Notes under the pieces: model-generated
Seen by the model: only the letters and a program-made list of their open reading frames with translations
The model's database searches: none
Told to the model about the DNA's origin: nothing
From: Planctomycetales bacterium
GTDB lineage: Bacteria > Planctomycetota > Planctomycetia > Pirellulales > Pirellulaceae
NCBI GenBank assembly: GCA_020426845.1
Contig: JAGQPF010000671.1
Coordinates: forward strand, 1-64,000
Length of the DNA stretch: 64,000 bases
Direction: 5' to 3'
Position numbers and translations under genes: made by a program
Shown: piece by piece, positions 42,656-49,487 of the stretch
How positions within the stretch are numbered: the stretch's first letter is position 1
Layout of the letters: every line of letters begins with the position of its first letter

Positions 42656-44512
42656 TCAGAAATCTCGCAAGGAACGCGGCGGCAGCGCGGCTCGCAAGGC
42701 GTTGACGACCGCGAACACGTCGATCACCTCTTGCGTGACAGCGCCGGCGACAGGCGGCAAATAGCCCGCTGCGGCGATGAACATGGCGACAACGCTGACC
42801 GCCATGCCGCCAACGGCGCTCTGCAAGGCGATTTGCCGCATGCGGCGACTGATATGCATCAGCTCGTCAACCTTCTCCAGCGAGGAGTCCATCACGACGG
42901 CGCCAGCCGCCTCGGTGGTCACATCGCTGTTCTGCCCGAAGGCGATGCCGACGGTCGCCGCCATCAGGGCCGGAGCGTCGTTGATGCCGTCGCCGACGAA
43001 CAGGGTTTCGGCGGCGGCGGTCTCGGCCTGCACGATTGCGAGCTTCTCCTCCGGGGACTTCTCGGCAAGGATCTCGCGAATTCCCACCTGGTCCGCCAGA
43101 TATTGCACCTCGGAGGCACGGTCGCCCGAGAGCAGCATGACGCGATTGACGCCATGCTGCGGACGAAGATGGCGAACGAACGTTGCGCCTTCCCGTCGCG
43201 GTGCGTCGCGAAATCGGTATGTGCCGGCATACCGTTCGTCGATCAGCACAACGCACTCCAGCCCGCCGGCGCGGGGCGGCAACAACGGGATCGCGTCGGG
43301 TTGCTCGGCAGCGAGCGCCTTGCGACTGGTGACGCGCACTGTCTTGCCTGCGGCGCGTCCCCGCAAGCCTTGCCCCGGTTGTTCGCTGACTTCACTCGCC
43401 TCATGAGTCGCGACGCCTTGCTGACGTCCGGCGGCCACCACCGCCTCGGCGAGTGGATGTTTCGAGTAGCGCTCGATGCTGGCCACAAGTGACAGCACCT
43501 CGGCCGGATCGAAGCCCTCGGCGACTTGTTGCTCGATCAGTTTCGGCTCGCCGTAGGTGAGCGTCCCGGTCTTGTCGAAGATCATCGTGCGGCAGCCGTC
43601 GATCTTTTCCAGCACCGTGGGATCGCGAATCACGATCGCCCGGCGGGCCGCCAAGGAGATCGAGCCAATGATGGCGACCGGTATGGCGATCAGCAGGGGA
43701 CACGGCGTGGCGACGACCAGCACGGCGAGAAACCGCACGGGATCGCCGCTGAGGATCCAGGCCAGGATGGCCAACGCGACGGCGATCGGCGTGTAGATCG
43801 CGCCCAGCTGATCGCCGAGCCGGCGGATTCGCGGCCGTTGTTGCTGCGAGGCCTCCATCACTCGCATCACTTGAGCATAGCGCGAGTCCGCGGCGACCTT
43901 GTCGGCTCGGATCGTCAGTGCCGACTCTCCGTTGATGGCTCCCGACAGCACCGTCGCTCCCGGCGTTTTGGACATCATGTAAGGCTCGCCTGTCAGATAC
44001 GACTCGTCCATGACGCCGTGCCCCTCGAGCACGGTGCCGTCGATCGGGCAGATCTCGTGGGGAAACACTAGCACCGTGTCGCCGACGTGAATCTGATCGA
44101 GCGAGATATCCTCGATCTTTGAGTCGATCTTGCGGTGAGCCGTCGACGGCATTCGCTTGGCCAGCGCTTGCAGCACGGACGATGCGCTGCGGACTGCGTA
44201 GGCCTCCAACGCCTCACCGCCGGAGAGCATCAGGACGACGAGCGTGCCGGCCAAGTATTCGCCCAGAATGACGGCGGTCACGATTGAAATGCCGGCCAAC
44301 AGATCCGAACCGAATTCACGCCGCAGCACCTTGACCAAGAGCTCCCAGACCAGGGGAATTCCGCCCAGCAGGAGGGCCAAAGTCAACGGCAGATCAACGA
44401 CGTATGGAGGCAAGTTGCTCGTCTGGCGCAGCGCCAGATGAACGACGATTGCCAAGCTGGCGATCAGCGCGATCAGGAGTTGGCGACGGCTGGCAATCGA
44501 GTCTTTTAGCAT
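42656..44512 (-). CDS. P1B-type heavy-metal-transporting ATPase
   Basis: A 618-residue P-type ATPase. ATG 44512 ([11 protein letters not shown]) removes a dubious extension. No N-terminal metal-binding domain; membrane helices occupy about residues 12-100. Actuator motif TGEP at 174-177; M-segment motif TPCPL at 269-273 (TPC in place of CPC); phosphorylation site DKTGTLT with D313; SKHPLAEAV (HP locus); hinge [10 protein letters not shown]. All core catalytic motifs intact. The single-Cys TPC motif means metal choice (copper, zinc, cobalt or other) cannot be predicted. It is divergent from the UspA/P2C pair. Confidence 0.93.
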
Positions 44513-45035
44513 GGTCTGTGGCTGTTCTGAGCAAGCGCGGACGGAGTGCCGCAGCGCTGCGGCAAGTGGCATGTCCAGTCAACAGGAAGGCGGGGAGTCT
44601 GCCAATCTGCTTGGCGTGCTTTGTGCAATGGTAGCCGAACTCCACGGGTGCTGTCGGCGGGCTAGTGGATTCCACCACCGGAAATTGGGCAATGACCTGA
44701 TCCACACCCTTTTCCTGGTGCCGCATACTCGGCTGCGCTGAGCAACACCACCAAAAACGGCTGACAATGGGATGGCAGACGCCACAAATCCGACGGCAGA
44801 AAGGTTGCCGCATGAATTGAAACTGCGTGGTCGTGCCGAACTGCTCCGACAACGAGCACGCGATTGCAATTGAATCGTTCGTAGGGGAGGGAGACACGCT
44901 TGGCACAGGTCGAACGCGAGGCGCAAGGTGAATGCCTGATCTCACTCCCATCGCTTCGTTGCCCCCAGCTGCTCGTTGGTGAGGCTCCGAATCCGCCATT
45001 CGGGACGTCGGTTCACGCGTTCTAAAGGCTCACCG
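44513..45035. other. Divergent promoter region, no gene
   Basis: About 520 bp between the metal ATPase and the UspA-like gene. Open frames on both strands lack protein character. No operator palindrome or metal-regulator site was recognised by eye. Confidence 0.4.
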
Positions 45036-45875
45036 ATGTTCTATTTCGCCTATGACGGGTCGATCAACGGCGATTGGGTCAGCCACTACGCAGTTCAGCT
45101 CGCGGCGGCGCAAGTCGATCGGCAGTTGAATTTGGTGCATGTCCGGGACGGCCTGACTCAGCGAGCGGAGCTGGAGGAGAAGCTGCGGCGACTCCGAGGC
45201 GAGTGCGCGCGAGCCGGTGTCGAGGTTGTTCCGCACATCTTGGACACGGACCGGCAAGTCTTGCCAGCTGTTCTCGCGCGGGTGCCAGGGGGGCCGGAAC
45301 ACTTTCTGTTGTGTGGCACCCGCGCGCGGCAGCGCCAGCGAGCGATTCTCAGCGGAACGATCTCGGAGCAACTGCTTCGCTCCGGGCACTGCAACGTATT
45401 GGCGTTGCGCGTGGTCCAGACAGGCCTGCTTGGCTTGCCGAGGCGGCTGTTGTTGCCCGTGGCGGGACACCCTCGCGGTTTTCGCGCGGGCTTGCCCTTC
45501 CTGCGGCTGTTTGTGCCCCAGCTCTCGCACCTGCATATCTTGTTGGTGGTCCGAGTCAGCCGCTGGAAGGCCTGGCGACTTTCCCATGAGGCGACGGAGC
45601 GCCTGCGCGCATCAGGACGGTTGTACTGTGAGCGTGTCGAACGTGAGGTCGGCGAGCAGCTTGGGCTCGGCGCAAAAATCGTCGACGCGCAGTCCGTTGT
45701 CTCGGACAACGTGCCCAACGAGATTGTCTTGGCCGCCAACAAGACCAAGTCCCGTTTGATCTACATGGGGGCGTCGGAACGGAATTTGTCGGAACTGCTG
45801 CTCTCCGGAAGTCCGATTGAACAGGTGTTGCGAGACGCCACCTGTGACGTCGCCGTCTATCGGGGCATCGAGTGA
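45036..45875 (+). CDS. Tandem-domain universal stress protein
   Basis: A 279-residue protein with two UspA-like domains. ATG 45036 gives MFYFAYDGSINGDWVSHYAV; the frame is open further upstream but less protein-like. The second domain ends with YMGASERNLSELLLSGSPIEQVL, then CDVAVYRGIE, matching the UspA ATP-loop position (G-A-S-E then GS); the first has GTRARQRQRAILSGTISEQLL at the equivalent place. The stop overlaps the start of the ion-pump gene (TGATG), so the two are co-translated. Confidence 0.85.
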   Translation: MFYFAYDGSINGDWVSHYAVQLAAAQVDRQLNLVHVRDGLTQRAELEEKLRRLRGECARAGVEVVPHILDTDRQVLPAVLARVPGGPEHFLLCGTRARQRQRAILSGTISEQLLRSGHCNVLALRVVQTGLLGLPRRLLLPVAGHPRGFRAGLPFLRLFVPQLSHLHILLVVRVSRWKAWRLSHEATERLRASGRLYCERVEREVGEQLGLGAKIVDAQSVVSDNVPNEIVLAANKTKSRLIYMGASERNLSELLLSGSPIEQVLRDATCDVAVYRGIE

Positions 45876-48610
45876 TGTACCCGGGGGGGCAGATTCACGA
45901 AGTCGCCGATGCGGACGTCTTCGGCCTGTTGCGGAGTCGGCCTCAGGGACTGACGGAGCCCGAAGTGGCCGCTCGGCGTCGAGAGGTCGGCGCCAACCGC
46001 TTGCAGCCGCCATCGCGTTGGAATTGGCTCAAGTCGCTGGCCAAACAGTTTCTCAACTTCTTCAGCCTCCTGCTCGACGTTGCCGCGGCGGTCTGCTTCA
46101 TCGCTGACACGATCCAGCCCGGCGAGGGCATGGGCGTGCTGGGCTGGGCTCTGCTGGGCGTGTCCGTGCTGGACGCGCTGTTCGCATTCGGACAAGAGAT
46201 GCGTGCGGAGCGGGCGATGGAGGAACTGCGAAAGTTCCTGCCTCAGCAAGTGCGCGTGCGTCGCGGTGGCGAGGAACAGCATGTGCCGGCGGAAGAGCTC
46301 GTGCCGGGAGATGTCCTGATTGTCGGCGAAGGTGACCGAATCGCCGCGGACGCCCGCTTGGTGGAATCGGAAGGGGCCCTGGTGAACAACGCCCCATTGA
46401 CCGGCGAGTCGCGCTCTCAGCCGCTCCGAATTGGCCCCGCCAAGGGCCGTCTGATCGACAGCCCCAACATCATTTTCGCTGGCAGCAGTGTTCTTCGCGG
46501 CACGGGCACGGGGGTCGTCTTTGCCACAGGGCACCGCACGGAGTTCGGCAAGATCGCGGCCTTGTCTCGCGACGTGCGGCGGCCGTTGTCGCCGCTGCAA
46601 CGAGAGACGGATCGAATGGTCCGCGTGCTGACGGTGATCGCAGTCTCCATGGGGGTGTTGTTTTTTGCCTATGGAGTGACGATTGGCCGGTCGCTGTGGG
46701 TCAACGTCGTCTTCATGCTGGGGATCATTGTGGCCAATGTTCCCGAGGGGCTCTTGCCGACCTTCACGCTCGCCTTGTCCATGGCGAGCGTGCGGATGGC
46801 CAAGAAGCAGGTGCTGGTCAAGGAGTTGGAGGCTGTCGAGTCGCTTGGCGCCGTCCATGTTATTTGCACCGACAAGACCGGAACACTCACTCACAACGAG
46901 CTGGCGATCACCGCGGTCATCGAGCCTTTGTTTGGCGAGGAGATCGCGGATGGGGAGGCGGCGCGATCACTGTTTAAGGCGGCGCTGATCGCATCGGAAG
47001 TGCGACTGGGAGCCAAGGGCAGTGACACGGAAGAGGACCGGGGGGCGCGTGCGGGTGATCCGCTGGATGTCGCCATCGCGGACCGCTACGCGCAGTTGTT
47101 CGGCTCGCCGGAGCCGATTCTGACCGCAACACGGCGGCATTTTCCGTTTGACTTGGCCAAGCGGCGGGAAGCGGGCGTGTTTGTCTGTGGCGAAGAGGTG
47201 CTGTTTGCTGTCAAAGGCGCCTGGGAATCCTTGCGGCCATTGATTGGCCATCTCGCTGCGAGCAGCCGTGAGCCGGAGATTGCCAATGACGAATCGCTGG
47301 CCATGTGCGACGAAATCGTGCGCCGAAACGCGGCTCGGGGACATCGGATGATCGCCGTGGCGTCGCGAGAGCTCGCCAAACGGCCCAATCCCGACGCTCG
47401 AGAAGAGTCGTTAGAGAGAGGTCTCGTGCTGCGTGGCTTTCTGGCGTTCGACGATCCAATTCGTGCGGAGGTGCCCGACGCAGTGACGCGCTGTCACGAT
47501 GCCGGAATTCAAGTTTTGATGGTCACGGGGGACCACCCCGACACCGCCCGTGCGATCGCTCAAATGTGCCGAATTCTTCCCGTCGATGAGCCCGTTGAGC
47601 AACGCATCCTGCTGGGGGCCGAGTTGGAGACGCTGCGCGAGGAGCAATTGGCACAACGACTTCGCGATGGCGCCACTGTATTTGCCCGGACGACTCCCGA
47701 GCAGAAGATGAAAATCGTGACTGCGCTCAAACGCCTCGGGCGCGTGGTTGGCATGACGGGCGACGGTGTCAACGATGCACCGGCGCTCAAGGCGGCCGAC
47801 GTCGGGATTGCGATGGGCGCCAGTGGCACGGACGTCGCCCGAGAAGCTGCGGACATCGTGCTGCTGGACGACAACTTCGCCTCAATCACCGCGGGAATCG
47901 AGGAGGGAAGAGCCGTTCTTGCGAACATGCAAAAGTTCACGACGTATGTGTTGTCGAGCAACATTCCCGAAATTGTCCCGTTTCTCGTTTTCATCGTGTT
48001 GCCCGTCCCGTTGGCGCTGACGGTGATCCAGATTCTCTCGATTGACCTCGGGACGGACTTGTTGCCTGCCATTGGGCTGGGCCAGGAGCCGCCCGAGCCG
48101 GACACGATGCGGCGGTCCCGCGGCCAACAGAACCAACGCCTGCTTAACTTTCGATTGATGGCCACGGCTTACCTATTTCTTGGTGTCATTCAGGCGGCGT
48201 GGTCGCTTTTCATGTTCTTTTTCGTGCTTACTCAGGGCGGCTGGCAATGGGGACAGGAATTGACGGAACGCGACCCGCTCTACCGCGCGGCCACTGGCAT
48301 GACTCTGGCGACGATTGTCTTGATGCAGATTGGGAATGTCGTCAGCCGGCGCTCTCTGACCAGGAGCGGCCTTGCTCGAGGTCTGCTCGCCAATCGCATC
48401 TTGCTGGTGGGGGTCGCATTCGAGGTGATTTTCTCGTGGTCCATCCTCTACTTTCCACCCGTGCAGAGCTTCCTCAAGACCGGGCCGGTCGCTTGGCAAG
48501 TTTATGCCTTGGCATGGCTGGGGATTCCGCTGATCTTTCTCGCCGACTACGCTCGCAAGAGGCTTCTTGGCGGGGTCGGCGGAATGTCCGGAGCTTGCGG
48601 TGCTTGGTGA
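45875..48610 (+). CDS. P2C-type (Na+/K+-ATPase-like) cation-transporting ATPase
   Basis: A 911-residue P-type ATPase. ATG 45875 overlaps the preceding stop by one base (a GTG at 45872 is also possible). TGES at 176-179; M4 motif ANVPEGLL with E291; phosphorylation site DKTGTLTH with D333; hinge MTGDGVNDAPALKAADVG. M5 and M6 read SSNIPEIVPFLVF (about residue 694) and IDLGTDLLPAI (about 722), the same residues that bind K+/Na+ in Na,K-ATPase (S, N, E in M5 and two Asp in M6). This places it with P2C pumps rather than Ca2+ pumps. No beta-subunit gene adjacent. Confidence 0.93.
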   Translation: MYPGGQIHEVADADVFGLLRSRPQGLTEPEVAARRREVGANRLQPPSRWNWLKSLAKQFLNFFSLLLDVAAAVCFIADTIQPGEGMGVLGWALLGVSVLDALFAFGQEMRAERAMEELRKFLPQQVRVRRGGEEQHVPAEELVPGDVLIVGEGDRIAADARLVESEGALVNNAPLTGESRSQPLRIGPAKGRLIDSPNIIFAGSSVLRGTGTGVVFATGHRTEFGKIAALSRDVRRPLSPLQRETDRMVRVLTVIAVSMGVLFFAYGVTIGRSLWVNVVFMLGIIVANVPEGLLPTFTLALSMASVRMAKKQVLVKELEAVESLGAVHVICTDKTGTLTHNELAITAVIEPLFGEEIADGEAARSLFKAALIASEVRLGAKGSDTEEDRGARAGDPLDVAIADRYAQLFGSPEPILTATRRHFPFDLAKRREAGVFVCGEEVLFAVKGAWESLRPLIGHLAASSREPEIANDESLAMCDEIVRRNAARGHRMIAVASRELAKRPNPDAREESLERGLVLRGFLAFDDPIRAEVPDAVTRCHDAGIQVLMVTGDHPDTARAIAQMCRILPVDEPVEQRILLGAELETLREEQLAQRLRDGATVFARTTPEQKMKIVTALKRLGRVVGMTGDGVNDAPALKAADVGIAMGASGTDVAREAADIVLLDDNFASITAGIEEGRAVLANMQKFTTYVLSSNIPEIVPFLVFIVLPVPLALTVIQILSIDLGTDLLPAIGLGQEPPEPDTMRRSRGQQNQRLLNFRLMATAYLFLGVIQAAWSLFMFFFVLTQGGWQWGQELTERDPLYRAATGMTLATIVLMQIGNVVSRRSLTRSGLARGLLANRILLVGVAFEVIFSWSILYFPPVQSFLKTGPVAWQVYALAWLGIPLIFLADYARKRLLGGVGGMSGACGAW

Positions 48611-48773
48611 GAAGAGGAAAATAGATTTTCGGAACGCGGTTGAAAAACCTCACCCACGAACGCTTCCGAGGCTGCAAACCGATCTTTCTCGGAAAGTACC
48701 TCCCGTCACTATTGCGGACGAGGAACTCACGCTCCACGGCTCCTCGCAGCAATCCCAATTCATCCTGAAGGCC

Positions 48774-49487
48774 ATGACCAAGCACAGCACGCGAAAGCAA
48801 ACCTGCCAGATTTGCCATCGGGATTTTGCGGCGGTCGATGTCATGCCGGCCGCCTTGGTGCGGTCGCCCGTCGTGGATCGCATTCAGCAGGACTGTCCCG
48901 AGTGGTCAGCCGAAGGGTTCATCTGCTTTTCGGACTTGAACCACTACCGCACCCTTTATGTCGAGCACGTCTTGGCGAGCGAGCGTGGTGAGCTGTCCGC
49001 TTTGGAGAACCAAGTCGTCACGAGCCTGCACGAACAAGAGCTTTTGGCGGAAAACGTCAATGAACGGTTTGAACAGGGCCTGACGTTCGGGGCGCGACTA
49101 GCCGATGACCTGGCAGCATTCGGCGGAAGTTGGACGTTTCTGATTTGCTTCGCTGCGTTGATGACGCTCTGGATTGGCGGCAACTCGCTGGTCGCGCTCT
49201 ATCGGCCGTTCGATCCGTTTCCCTTCATCCTGCTGAACCTAATCCTGTCCTGCCTCGCCGCTATTCAGGCGCCGGTGATCATGATGAGCCAGAACCGCCA
49301 GGAGGCCAAGGACCGAGTGCGTGCCGAACACGACTTCCGTGTCAACTTGAAGGCAGAATTGGAGATACGGCACTTACATGCCAAGCTCGATCTGCTGCTA
49401 AGCCACCAATGGCAACGCTTGCTGGAGATTCAGGAAATCCAAATGGAACTGATGCAAGAAGCCCGCAAGGGCCGAGGGCAACGATAG
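48774..49487 (+). CDS. DUF1003 family membrane protein
   Basis: A 237-residue protein. ATG 48774 (MTKHSTRKQTCQIC) is preferred as the Cys motif CQICHRDF starts the family's rubredoxin-like N-terminus. Two membrane segments (about 115-135 and 147-168) are joined by ALYRPFDPFPF, the DUF1003 hallmark, followed by PVIMMSQNRQEAKDRVRAEH and a coiled-coil end. Function unknown. It lies 163 bp after the P2C ATPase on the same strand and could be transcribed with it. Confidence 0.9.
   Translation: MTKHSTRKQTCQICHRDFAAVDVMPAALVRSPVVDRIQQDCPEWSAEGFICFSDLNHYRTLYVEHVLASERGELSALENQVVTSLHEQELLAENVNERFEQGLTFGARLADDLAAFGGSWTFLICFAALMTLWIGGNSLVALYRPFDPFPFILLNLILSCLAAIQAPVIMMSQNRQEAKDRVRAEHDFRVNLKAELEIRHLHAKLDLLLSHQWQRLLEIQEIQMELMQEARKGRGQR

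Follow-up and report, generated by a model that had tools for sequence, protein, structure and literature searches.

Universal stress proteins (Usp) are common and are often encoded near transport genes. In the TRAP transporter TeaABC, the regulatory subunit TeaD is a Usp whose deletion potentiates transport, and the cytosolic domain of the cation-chloride cotransporters KCC and NKCC binds ATP/ADP, including at the site of KCC1 (PMC8280820). For KdpD, the Usp motif for c-di-AMP is given as SXS-X20-FTAXY (PMC4686210). As for the pumps, the field regards the role of prokaryotic (archaeal) P2C ATPases as an open question (PMC10654040). A search of open-licence PubMed Central texts brought up no paper recognisable as a description of a Usp gene paired with a P2C pump. 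Such a pair is present in the window, i.e., the whole stretch of 64,000 nucleotides from a Planctomycetales bacterium analysed here.

The Usp gene (P0001, 279 aa) was found on the plus strand at 45036..45875 and was recognised as a tandem universal-stress protein from its translation, a Pfam match (PF00582) in the C half and the predicted fold. It is followed, also on the plus strand, by a gene for a P-type ATPase of the P2C (Na,K-ATPase) type (P0002, 911 aa, 45875..48610), assigned from its translation, family profiles, trees and a fold search. Based on the reading of the ORFs, the Usp stop TGA (45873-45875) and the pump ATG (45875-45877) have one base in common within the plus-strand element GTGATG (45872..45877), so the overlap TGATG lies exactly where the preliminary description had placed it. 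If the pump instead started at the in-frame GTG at 45872, the genes would share four bases (GTGA), as they do at the junction in the relative L046. In total, 60 distinct Usp-pump pairs were collected from fetched loci, best matches first, with duplicates recognised (L206 = L063, L236 = L070, L241 = L067). The two genes overlap in 46 of the 60 pairs, that is, in the window and in 45/59 others; start codons were unannotated, and the possible pump start nearest the Usp stop was used, a choice favouring overlap. Because the overlap recurs in so many distinct pairs, it is not a chance feature. Translational coupling through it would lead to Usp and pump being made in matched amounts.

In the trees that included P2A and P2C pumps, P0002 was placed in the P2C (Na,K-ATPase) clade, apart from the Ca2+ pumps (SH-aLRT 100), and a firm grouping with Ca2+ pumps was not observed. 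The D-type pumps and the Na,K-ATPases (NKA) formed one clade versus the P2A rows (SH-aLRT 100), and NKA was sister to the archaeal P2C pumps (support 100). The best NCBIfam profile for the pump was TIGR01106 (559 bits), followed by PMR1 (456) and SERCA (378). The pump missed the curated cut-off of TIGR01106 (946 bits), as well as all other specific family cut-offs, and was therefore assigned to the wider P2C clade rather than annotated as a Na,K/H,K-ATPase alpha subunit. Its best PDB sequence match was Na,K-ATPase alpha-4, and the top 46 matches of the fold search, run with a mediocre pump model (pLDDT 74.6), were all Na,K- or H,K-ATPases. Taken together, the trees and the fold matches favour the Na,K-ATPase type over a Ca2+ pump, as had been proposed. 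Drift of a P2A-like Ca2+ pump toward P2C residues is a highly improbable origin for P0002. Such an origin would fit a P2C family cut-off that is out of the pump's reach, and the Nitrospirota pump L070 and the archaeal L078, for both of which a PMR1-type model outscores the P2C model; however, three trees and the 46 fold matches place the pump with P2C, L070 itself also has a Na,K-ATPase as its best PDB sequence match, and other members lie next to Na+/K+ genes (CCC, Na/H exchanger, TrkA). The ion-site residues also speak against it.

All the motifs considered here lie on the plus strand and were located by translation and alignment. The M4 motif ANVPEG (46733..46750, residues 287-292) contains Glu291, equivalent to NKA E327, and Glu is found at this position in 100/100 prokaryotic P2C-like pumps. 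The phosphorylation motif DKTGT with Asp333 is at 46871..46885, and D333, K334, T335, G336 and T337 are invariant in an alignment of 11 pumps. In M5, YVLSSNIPE (47945..47971) includes SSNIPE (residues 694-699) with Ser695, Asn696 and Glu699, which correspond to NKA S775, N776 and E779. In M6, IDLGTD (48041..48058, residues 723-728) provides Asp724 and Asp728, which correspond to NKA D804 and D808. At the first of these M6 positions the sampled P2A-type pumps have Asn, which we take to be the SERCA N796 position; Asp724 and the placement outside the P2A rows are thus at odds with P2A Ca2+-ATPase membership. The residues of sites I and II, namely, the M4 Glu, the M5 S-N-x-x-E and the M6 D-x-x-x-D, are therefore all present, as was originally described for ANVPEG, SSNIPE and IDLGTD. 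In M8, QIGN (48326..48337) contains Gln818, equivalent to NKA Q923, and Asn821 at the position of NKA D926, the Asp of the third Na+ site. Of 100 prokaryotic P2C-like pumps, 96 have Asn here, 3 have Thr and 1 has Asp. Hence, the statement that the pump keeps the residues binding K+ and Na+ holds for the K+-site residues but not for the full Na+ set, and a 3Na:2K exchange like that of the animal enzyme should not be taken for granted. The substitution is presumably the same as in the human ATP1A3 disease mutation D923N.

Pfam PF00582 matched residues 163-276 of P0001, i.e., the C half only (E 1.7e-16, 61.5 bits against a cut-off of 24). Structure prediction gave a tandem Usp fold spanning residues 1-279 (pLDDT 88) with a VIA-align Z of 20.7 to TTHA0350, so profile and predicted fold agree on a tandem member of the family and bear out the two-domain organization proposed before. 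The nucleotide site is a different matter. In the C half, the loop GASERNLSELLLSGS (45768..45812, plus strand, from the alignment) replaces the ATP motif G-x2-G-x9-G(S/T), with Glu for the second Gly. The canonical motif was found in 26/30 unlinked Usps and in 0/60 pump-linked ones, P0001 included; the label "ATP-binding" given to this protein in the preliminary description is thus unsupported. A reading through c-di-AMP was also considered: the genome encodes a diadenylate cyclase, but the KdpD-type motif is missing from the window Usp, the one protein checked for it.

A Usp gene is located directly upstream in 11/11 pumps examined from the window's clade, so the separation of the two genes in close relatives, named earlier as an outcome that would speak against the pairing, was not seen. 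In the first locus survey, in which loci with <300 bases upstream were set aside, a same-strand upstream Usp was present in 7/7 relatives of the window clade (six scored by script and L065 by hand) and in 6/6 Nitrospirota loci. Further Nitrospirota loci had it in 30/30 cases (the best 30 of 135 matching Nitrospirota genomes). Among further P2C-like pump loci (the best 30 loci of 35 matching genomes), an upstream Usp was found in 19/30, while 11/30 were without an adjacent Usp. The P2A and other pumps had an upstream Usp on the same strand in 6/99 loci and a Usp in any adjacent position in 10/99, and other D-type loci had an upstream Usp in 0/29. The difference between the two clades (window and Nitrospirota) and the P2A/other pumps was significant (Fisher p 5e-11). 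In one survey, used only to look at neighbours, 11 pump loci dropped out at gene calling. Flanks of about 1.5 kb around archaeal P2C loci gave no Usp match, and to our knowledge the animal NKA has no adjacent Usp. Given these cases and the 11/30 loci, the Usp is not obligatory for this type of pump, and given the 6/99 P2A pumps, adjacency by itself is not unique to P2C. A plasmid search for the pump returned 53 records, none with >60% identity, and the gene tables, incomplete as they are, of two inspected plasmid regions (H1 and H2) list no Usp gene.

Some same-clade pumps are associated with other cytosolic regulatory modules: TrkA pairs for L075 and L076, and N-terminal PTS EIIA_2 domains for L225, L233 and L234.

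The beta subunit is a feature of the animal enzyme, and nothing in the entire assembly (97.5% complete) matched the profile PF00287 at E<=1, which extends the original remark that no beta subunit is encoded nearby. It could be imagined that the Usp, translated first from a gene overlapping the pump start in a genome without a beta-subunit match, is a biogenesis factor, i.e., a co-translational chaperone or assembly protein that replaces the folding role of beta and does not regulate turnover. We consider this very unlikely: an adjacent Usp is absent from many P2C-like pump loci, so folding does not in general require one, and we know of no precedent for a Usp as a chaperone of P-type pumps.

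In the Usp tree, which included 31 of the 60 linked Usps and from whose background L191 (L089's own Usp) was removed, one branch (99/98) split the linked Usps from 24 other Usps, and it was found in 100% of 200 bootstrap trees. Nine Usps beside P2A-type pumps fell outside the linked group; generic Usp-pump adjacency was accordingly rejected, and these cases are a separate matter from the P2C pairs. A reverse profile test was mixed, as some window-clade Usps did not score above unlinked Usps with the Nitrospirota Usp profile. These results bear on the idea of a Usp that senses stress or osmolarity in general and never touches the pump, the two being expressed together only because both are needed under salt or in stationary phase. 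Usps are stress-linked and abundant (50 domain matches over four genomes), and some lie beside P2A pumps; yet one linked group apart from the other Usps and a uniformly lost ATP motif are hard to square with generic co-expression, and the genes overlap in 46/60 pairs; this explanation is rather unlikely. Gene linkage and shared inheritance tie the Usp gene to one transporter clade, and the recurrence of the same pair in distantly related bacteria suggests that the soluble Usp is a dedicated partner controlling the pump. The preliminary description had come to a similar suggestion, with which the grouping of the linked Usps is consistent.

A single clade of the window and Nitrospirota clades was not rejected (p 0.38). 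The Usp-linked pumps as a whole do not form one clade (AU p 4e-5), while the linked Usps group together, and three changes suffice to explain the Usp-linkage label across the P2C-like rows, which we offer as support for a tentative, rather doubtful proposal that the pairing of P2C pump and tandem Usp predates the split of the bacterial Usp-linked pumps from the archaeal/animal sodium pump. In that case, the Na,K-ATPase ancestor would have been a bacterial pump with two sites, no beta and control by a Usp, and its descendants would have lost the Usp and gained Asp926 (the third Na+ site, with electrogenicity) and beta. Counted against it, the Usp gene may have been transferred later between pump lineages. 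In addition, the data are fitted just as well by a tree that places the NKA/archaeal group outside all other core rows (AU p 0.50), so NKA need not be nested among Usp-linked lineages.

Based on the above results, we suggest, with a probability of roughly 0.6, that the two genes make up a single functional unit, in which a beta-less P2C cation pump has the tandem Usp as its dedicated regulatory subunit. What is read from the sequences is the overlap, the co-conservation, the separate group of linked Usps, the P2C ancestry, the site residues and the loss of the ATP motif; from these we infer translational coupling, matched amounts, docking, the sign of regulation and the ions moved. With sites I and II intact, the pump would probably move Na+ out and K+ (or another counter-cation) in, and the change at the third Na+ site (D926N) makes an exchange less electrogenic than 3Na:2K likely. 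The Usp subunit would dock on the cytosolic pump domains and set pump activity, most likely by holding the pump back until a small molecule or an osmotic signal relieves the block, with the canonical ATP motif not involved. A recurrent coupled soluble partner could provide a handle on the control of prokaryotic P2C pumps, in a bacterial two-gene system amenable to expression. The near-universal Asn at site III predicts a smaller number of Na+ ions moved in each cycle by prokaryotic P2C pumps and a later origin of electrogenicity.

Compared with known systems, the window pump resembles the Na,K-ATPase alpha subunit and archaeal P2C pumps in its clade, the equivalents of E327, S775, N776, E779, D804 and D808, DKTGT and the predicted fold. 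It differs from the alpha subunit in its 911 aa, the score below the TIGR01106 cut-off, the lack of a beta match and the Asn at D926, and from both in the coupled upstream Usp gene. As in KdpD, a Usp fold would be tied to K+ homeostasis, but the KdpD Usp sits in a sensor kinase controlling transcription, and the window Usp is without the c-di-AMP motif. Like TeaD, to which its model aligns with Z 11.3 over 121 residues, the window Usp has the Usp fold and would work for one particular transporter; TeaD, however, is single-domain and ATP-binding, whereas the window Usp is tandem and without the ATP motif, and the transporters are unrelated. Finally, a tandem Usp-like fold also serves Na+/K+ transporters in the cytosolic domain of the cation-chloride cotransporters (KCC, NKCC, NCC and the prokaryotic 3g40), to which the window Usp model is similar (Z 16.8 to 3g40 and 16.1 to KCC3, at 9-12% identity); the domain is fused to the transporter there and is a separate protein at the window locus.

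The tandem Usp (universal stress protein) gene (45036-45875, + strand, 279 aa) and the P-type ATPase gene (45875-48610, + strand, 911 aa), both taken from ORF translation, meet at a TGATG junction, where the TGA stop of the Usp frame shares a base with the ATG of the pump. An in-frame GTG located 3 bases ahead of this ATG provides an alternative pump start. The observation made in the preliminary description is confirmed, and stronger than stated there. The PF00582 sequence profile matched only the C-terminal half of the Usp, and the predicted structure (pLDDT 88.3, pTM 0.88, with a 13-sequence alignment as input) has a tandem Usp fold over its full length, with the best match to TTHA0350 (Z 20.7, 235 residues). 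The window belongs to a 9.5 Mb assembly of 777 contigs. A P1B heavy-metal ATPase gene (42656-44572, - strand; TIGR01525, 502 bits) adjoins the pair on the opposite strand. A DUF1003 membrane protein (48567-49487, + strand) is encoded immediately 3′ of the pump, its open frame overlapping the pump end; no DUF1003 gene was found among the few downstream genes scanned in relatives.

The window pump descends from the Na,K-ATPase (P2C) lineage. Its best NCBIfam profile was TIGR01106 (P2C) with 559 bits, which is below the cut-off of 946 bits, followed by PMR1 (456) and SERCA (378). Na,K-ATPases were also its top PDB sequence matches, and the first 46 structural matches of its predicted structure (pLDDT of only 74.6) were Na,K- or H,K-ATPases. 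In a 50-row tree, a "quick" run with a single support measure, a branch with SH-aLRT 100 separated 11 P2A rows, SPCA1 and LMCA1 included, from a set made up of the pumps with Asp at the NKA D804 position (D-type), the animal Na,K-ATPases (NKA) and L077, a single deviant row of archaeal origin. The same tree placed archaeal P2C as the sister of NKA (support 100) and recovered a window pump clade of 8 members (support 100). The division between P2A and D-type/NKA was unchanged in a second tree of this quick kind, built without archaeal P2C rows. Trees, profile ranking, PDB and fold matches therefore all agree with the earlier assignment to the Na,K-ATPase rather than the Ca2+-pump type.

Ion-binding sites were compared over 100 distinct D-type pumps of prokaryotes (out of 101 aligned), with residue equivalences obtained by alignment to a PDB chain of Na,K-ATPase alpha-4 and positions given in NKA numbering. 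The equivalents of E327, Y771, E779 and Q923 were invariant (100/100), while Ser at S775 (86/100), Asn at N776 (91/100), Asp at D808 (93/100) and Glu at E954 (89/100) were largely kept. At D926, Asn was found in 96 pumps, Thr in 3 and Asp in 1; the archaeal P2C sequences examined also have Asn here. The K+/Na+ site residues named in the preliminary description are kept as it claimed, but it left out site III, where the D926 equivalent is mostly Asn. This state presumably equals the ATP1A3 D923N disease mutation, to which a 2010 study reportedly tied disruption of the third Na+ site. The sole Asp belongs to L223, a pump with QVAD in M8. Three Actinobacterial pumps (L082, L083, L084) have altered ion sites inside the P2C-like clade (AHATPE in M5, an FDV-type M6).

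Relatives were collected by a genome-contig search with a three-pump alignment. Pumps 53-57% identical to that of the window were found in Desulfobacterales, Desulfobacteria, Desulfobulbaceae, Desulfuromonadales, a Rhodospirillales MAG and a Sandaracinus MAG, and a 58% identical one (L046) in a genome from a different class of the window's phylum. All of them have a tandem Usp directly upstream on the same strand, with a spacing of -4 to +2 bases. The arrangement is the same for six Nitrospirota pumps (about 42% identity); in four of them the two genes overlap by 11-14 bases, and in the other two a gap separates them. Among loci picked by pump and not by Usp, an upstream Usp was present in 7/7 window-clade loci (6/7 by script alone, L065 being scored by hand) and 6/6 from Nitrospirota, versus 0/29 other D-type loci and 6/99 P2A/other loci. 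Since related loci are not independent, the Fisher p of 5e-11 (window clade plus Nitrospirota against P2A/other) is only a guide. Together with the loci of the wider sample described next, and after removal of duplicates, 60 distinct pairs including the window were obtained; in the remaining 59, the genes overlap in 45, lie 0-30 bases apart in 6 and more than 30 bases apart in 8.

A pump above the search threshold occurred in 35/395 genomes in the phylum of genome G450 and in 135/295 Nitrospirota genomes (the phylum of G451), and of the 30 best loci fetched from each, 19/30 and 30/30, respectively, had a Usp upstream, in agreement with the smaller sample. In the window's phylum, G248 was the sole other genome of 392 with a match above 50% identity at the threshold used, and 1/12 genomes of its class had a match. 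The close form of the pair thus looks horizontally spread, being rare and scattered in the window's phylum and common elsewhere.

In a careful tree, 31 Usps adjoining P2C-like pumps (linked Usps) split from 24 others, namely 15 from other genomes and 9 adjoining P2A-type pumps (support 99/98; 100% of 200 bootstrap trees). With a profile of the window-clade Usps, the six linked Usps from Nitrospirota all outranked the 30 unlinked Usps; the reverse profile test gave a mixed order. The separate grouping and the conservation of the pair across distant bacteria argue at the sequence level for the dedicated partner proposed in the preliminary description. In one acidobacterial P2A-type locus (L093:4453-5346), the Usp gene comes immediately after the pump gene and overlaps it by 4 bases; this Usp falls outside the P2C-linked group.

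The Usp ATP motif is given as G-x2-G-x9-G(S/T) in PMC4686210. This motif was present in 26/30 unlinked Usps and, by motif scan, in none of the 60 linked Usp proteins; a single match (L065) lies in the open frame but ahead of the point where the protein begins. In most linked Usps, GASER...GNP-x-E occupies its place. The "ATP-binding" label was therefore not borne out as far as sequence tells, and a more fitting description is that of a Usp which has lost the ATP signature.

For the history of the pairing, three changes of the Usp label sufficed over the non-reference P2C-like rows of a 76-row tree. A single clade of all 36 Usp-linked pumps was rejected in a constrained tree (p 4e-5). Placing NKA together with the archaeal/related group outside the rest of the core rows gave a tree as good as the free one (p 0.50), so an ancient Usp-pump pair that was lost on the line leading to the sodium pump of animals is no more than a possibility.

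Other genes and domains, some of them regulatory, accompany further pumps of the same clade. Two Chloroflexi pumps are directly followed by two TrkA (RCK; TrkA_N/TrkA_C) genes each (L075:4837-6177; L076:6812-8154), the first overlapping the pump in L075. An N-terminal PTS EIIA_2 domain is carried by pumps L225, L233 and L234 (E 1.6e-17, 6.5e-18 and 1.5e-13), which are pump-regulator fusions; L047 gave a weak match (E 0.004). Pump L078 starts 8 bases past a cation-chloride cotransporter gene (L078:1815-3989), and L080 starts 20 bases past a Na/H exchanger gene (L080:2565-3944). Such surroundings are consistent with a role in Na+/K+ handling, and they suggest that pumps of this kind acquired cytosolic modules on several occasions.

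The components are of known kinds, a P2C pump and a transporter-dedicated Usp, and no report of a Usp-P2C pump pair was found in the open-licence literature. The KdpD-type c-di-AMP motif was not found in the window Usp, the one protein searched; a diadenylate cyclase gene is encoded in the window's genome. The nearest working models are TeaD and, in cation-chloride cotransporters, the cytosolic domain. From these models and the fold matches, we propose that the Usp would be produced alongside the pump and dock on it as a regulatory subunit, probably inhibitory at rest. According to PMC8280820, TeaD deletion potentiates transport; the cotransporter domain resembles TeaD, and that of KCC1 binds ATP/ADP. 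The linked Usp fold matched this domain with Z 16.8 (prokaryotic 3g40) and 16.1 (KCC3), and TeaD with Z 11.3.
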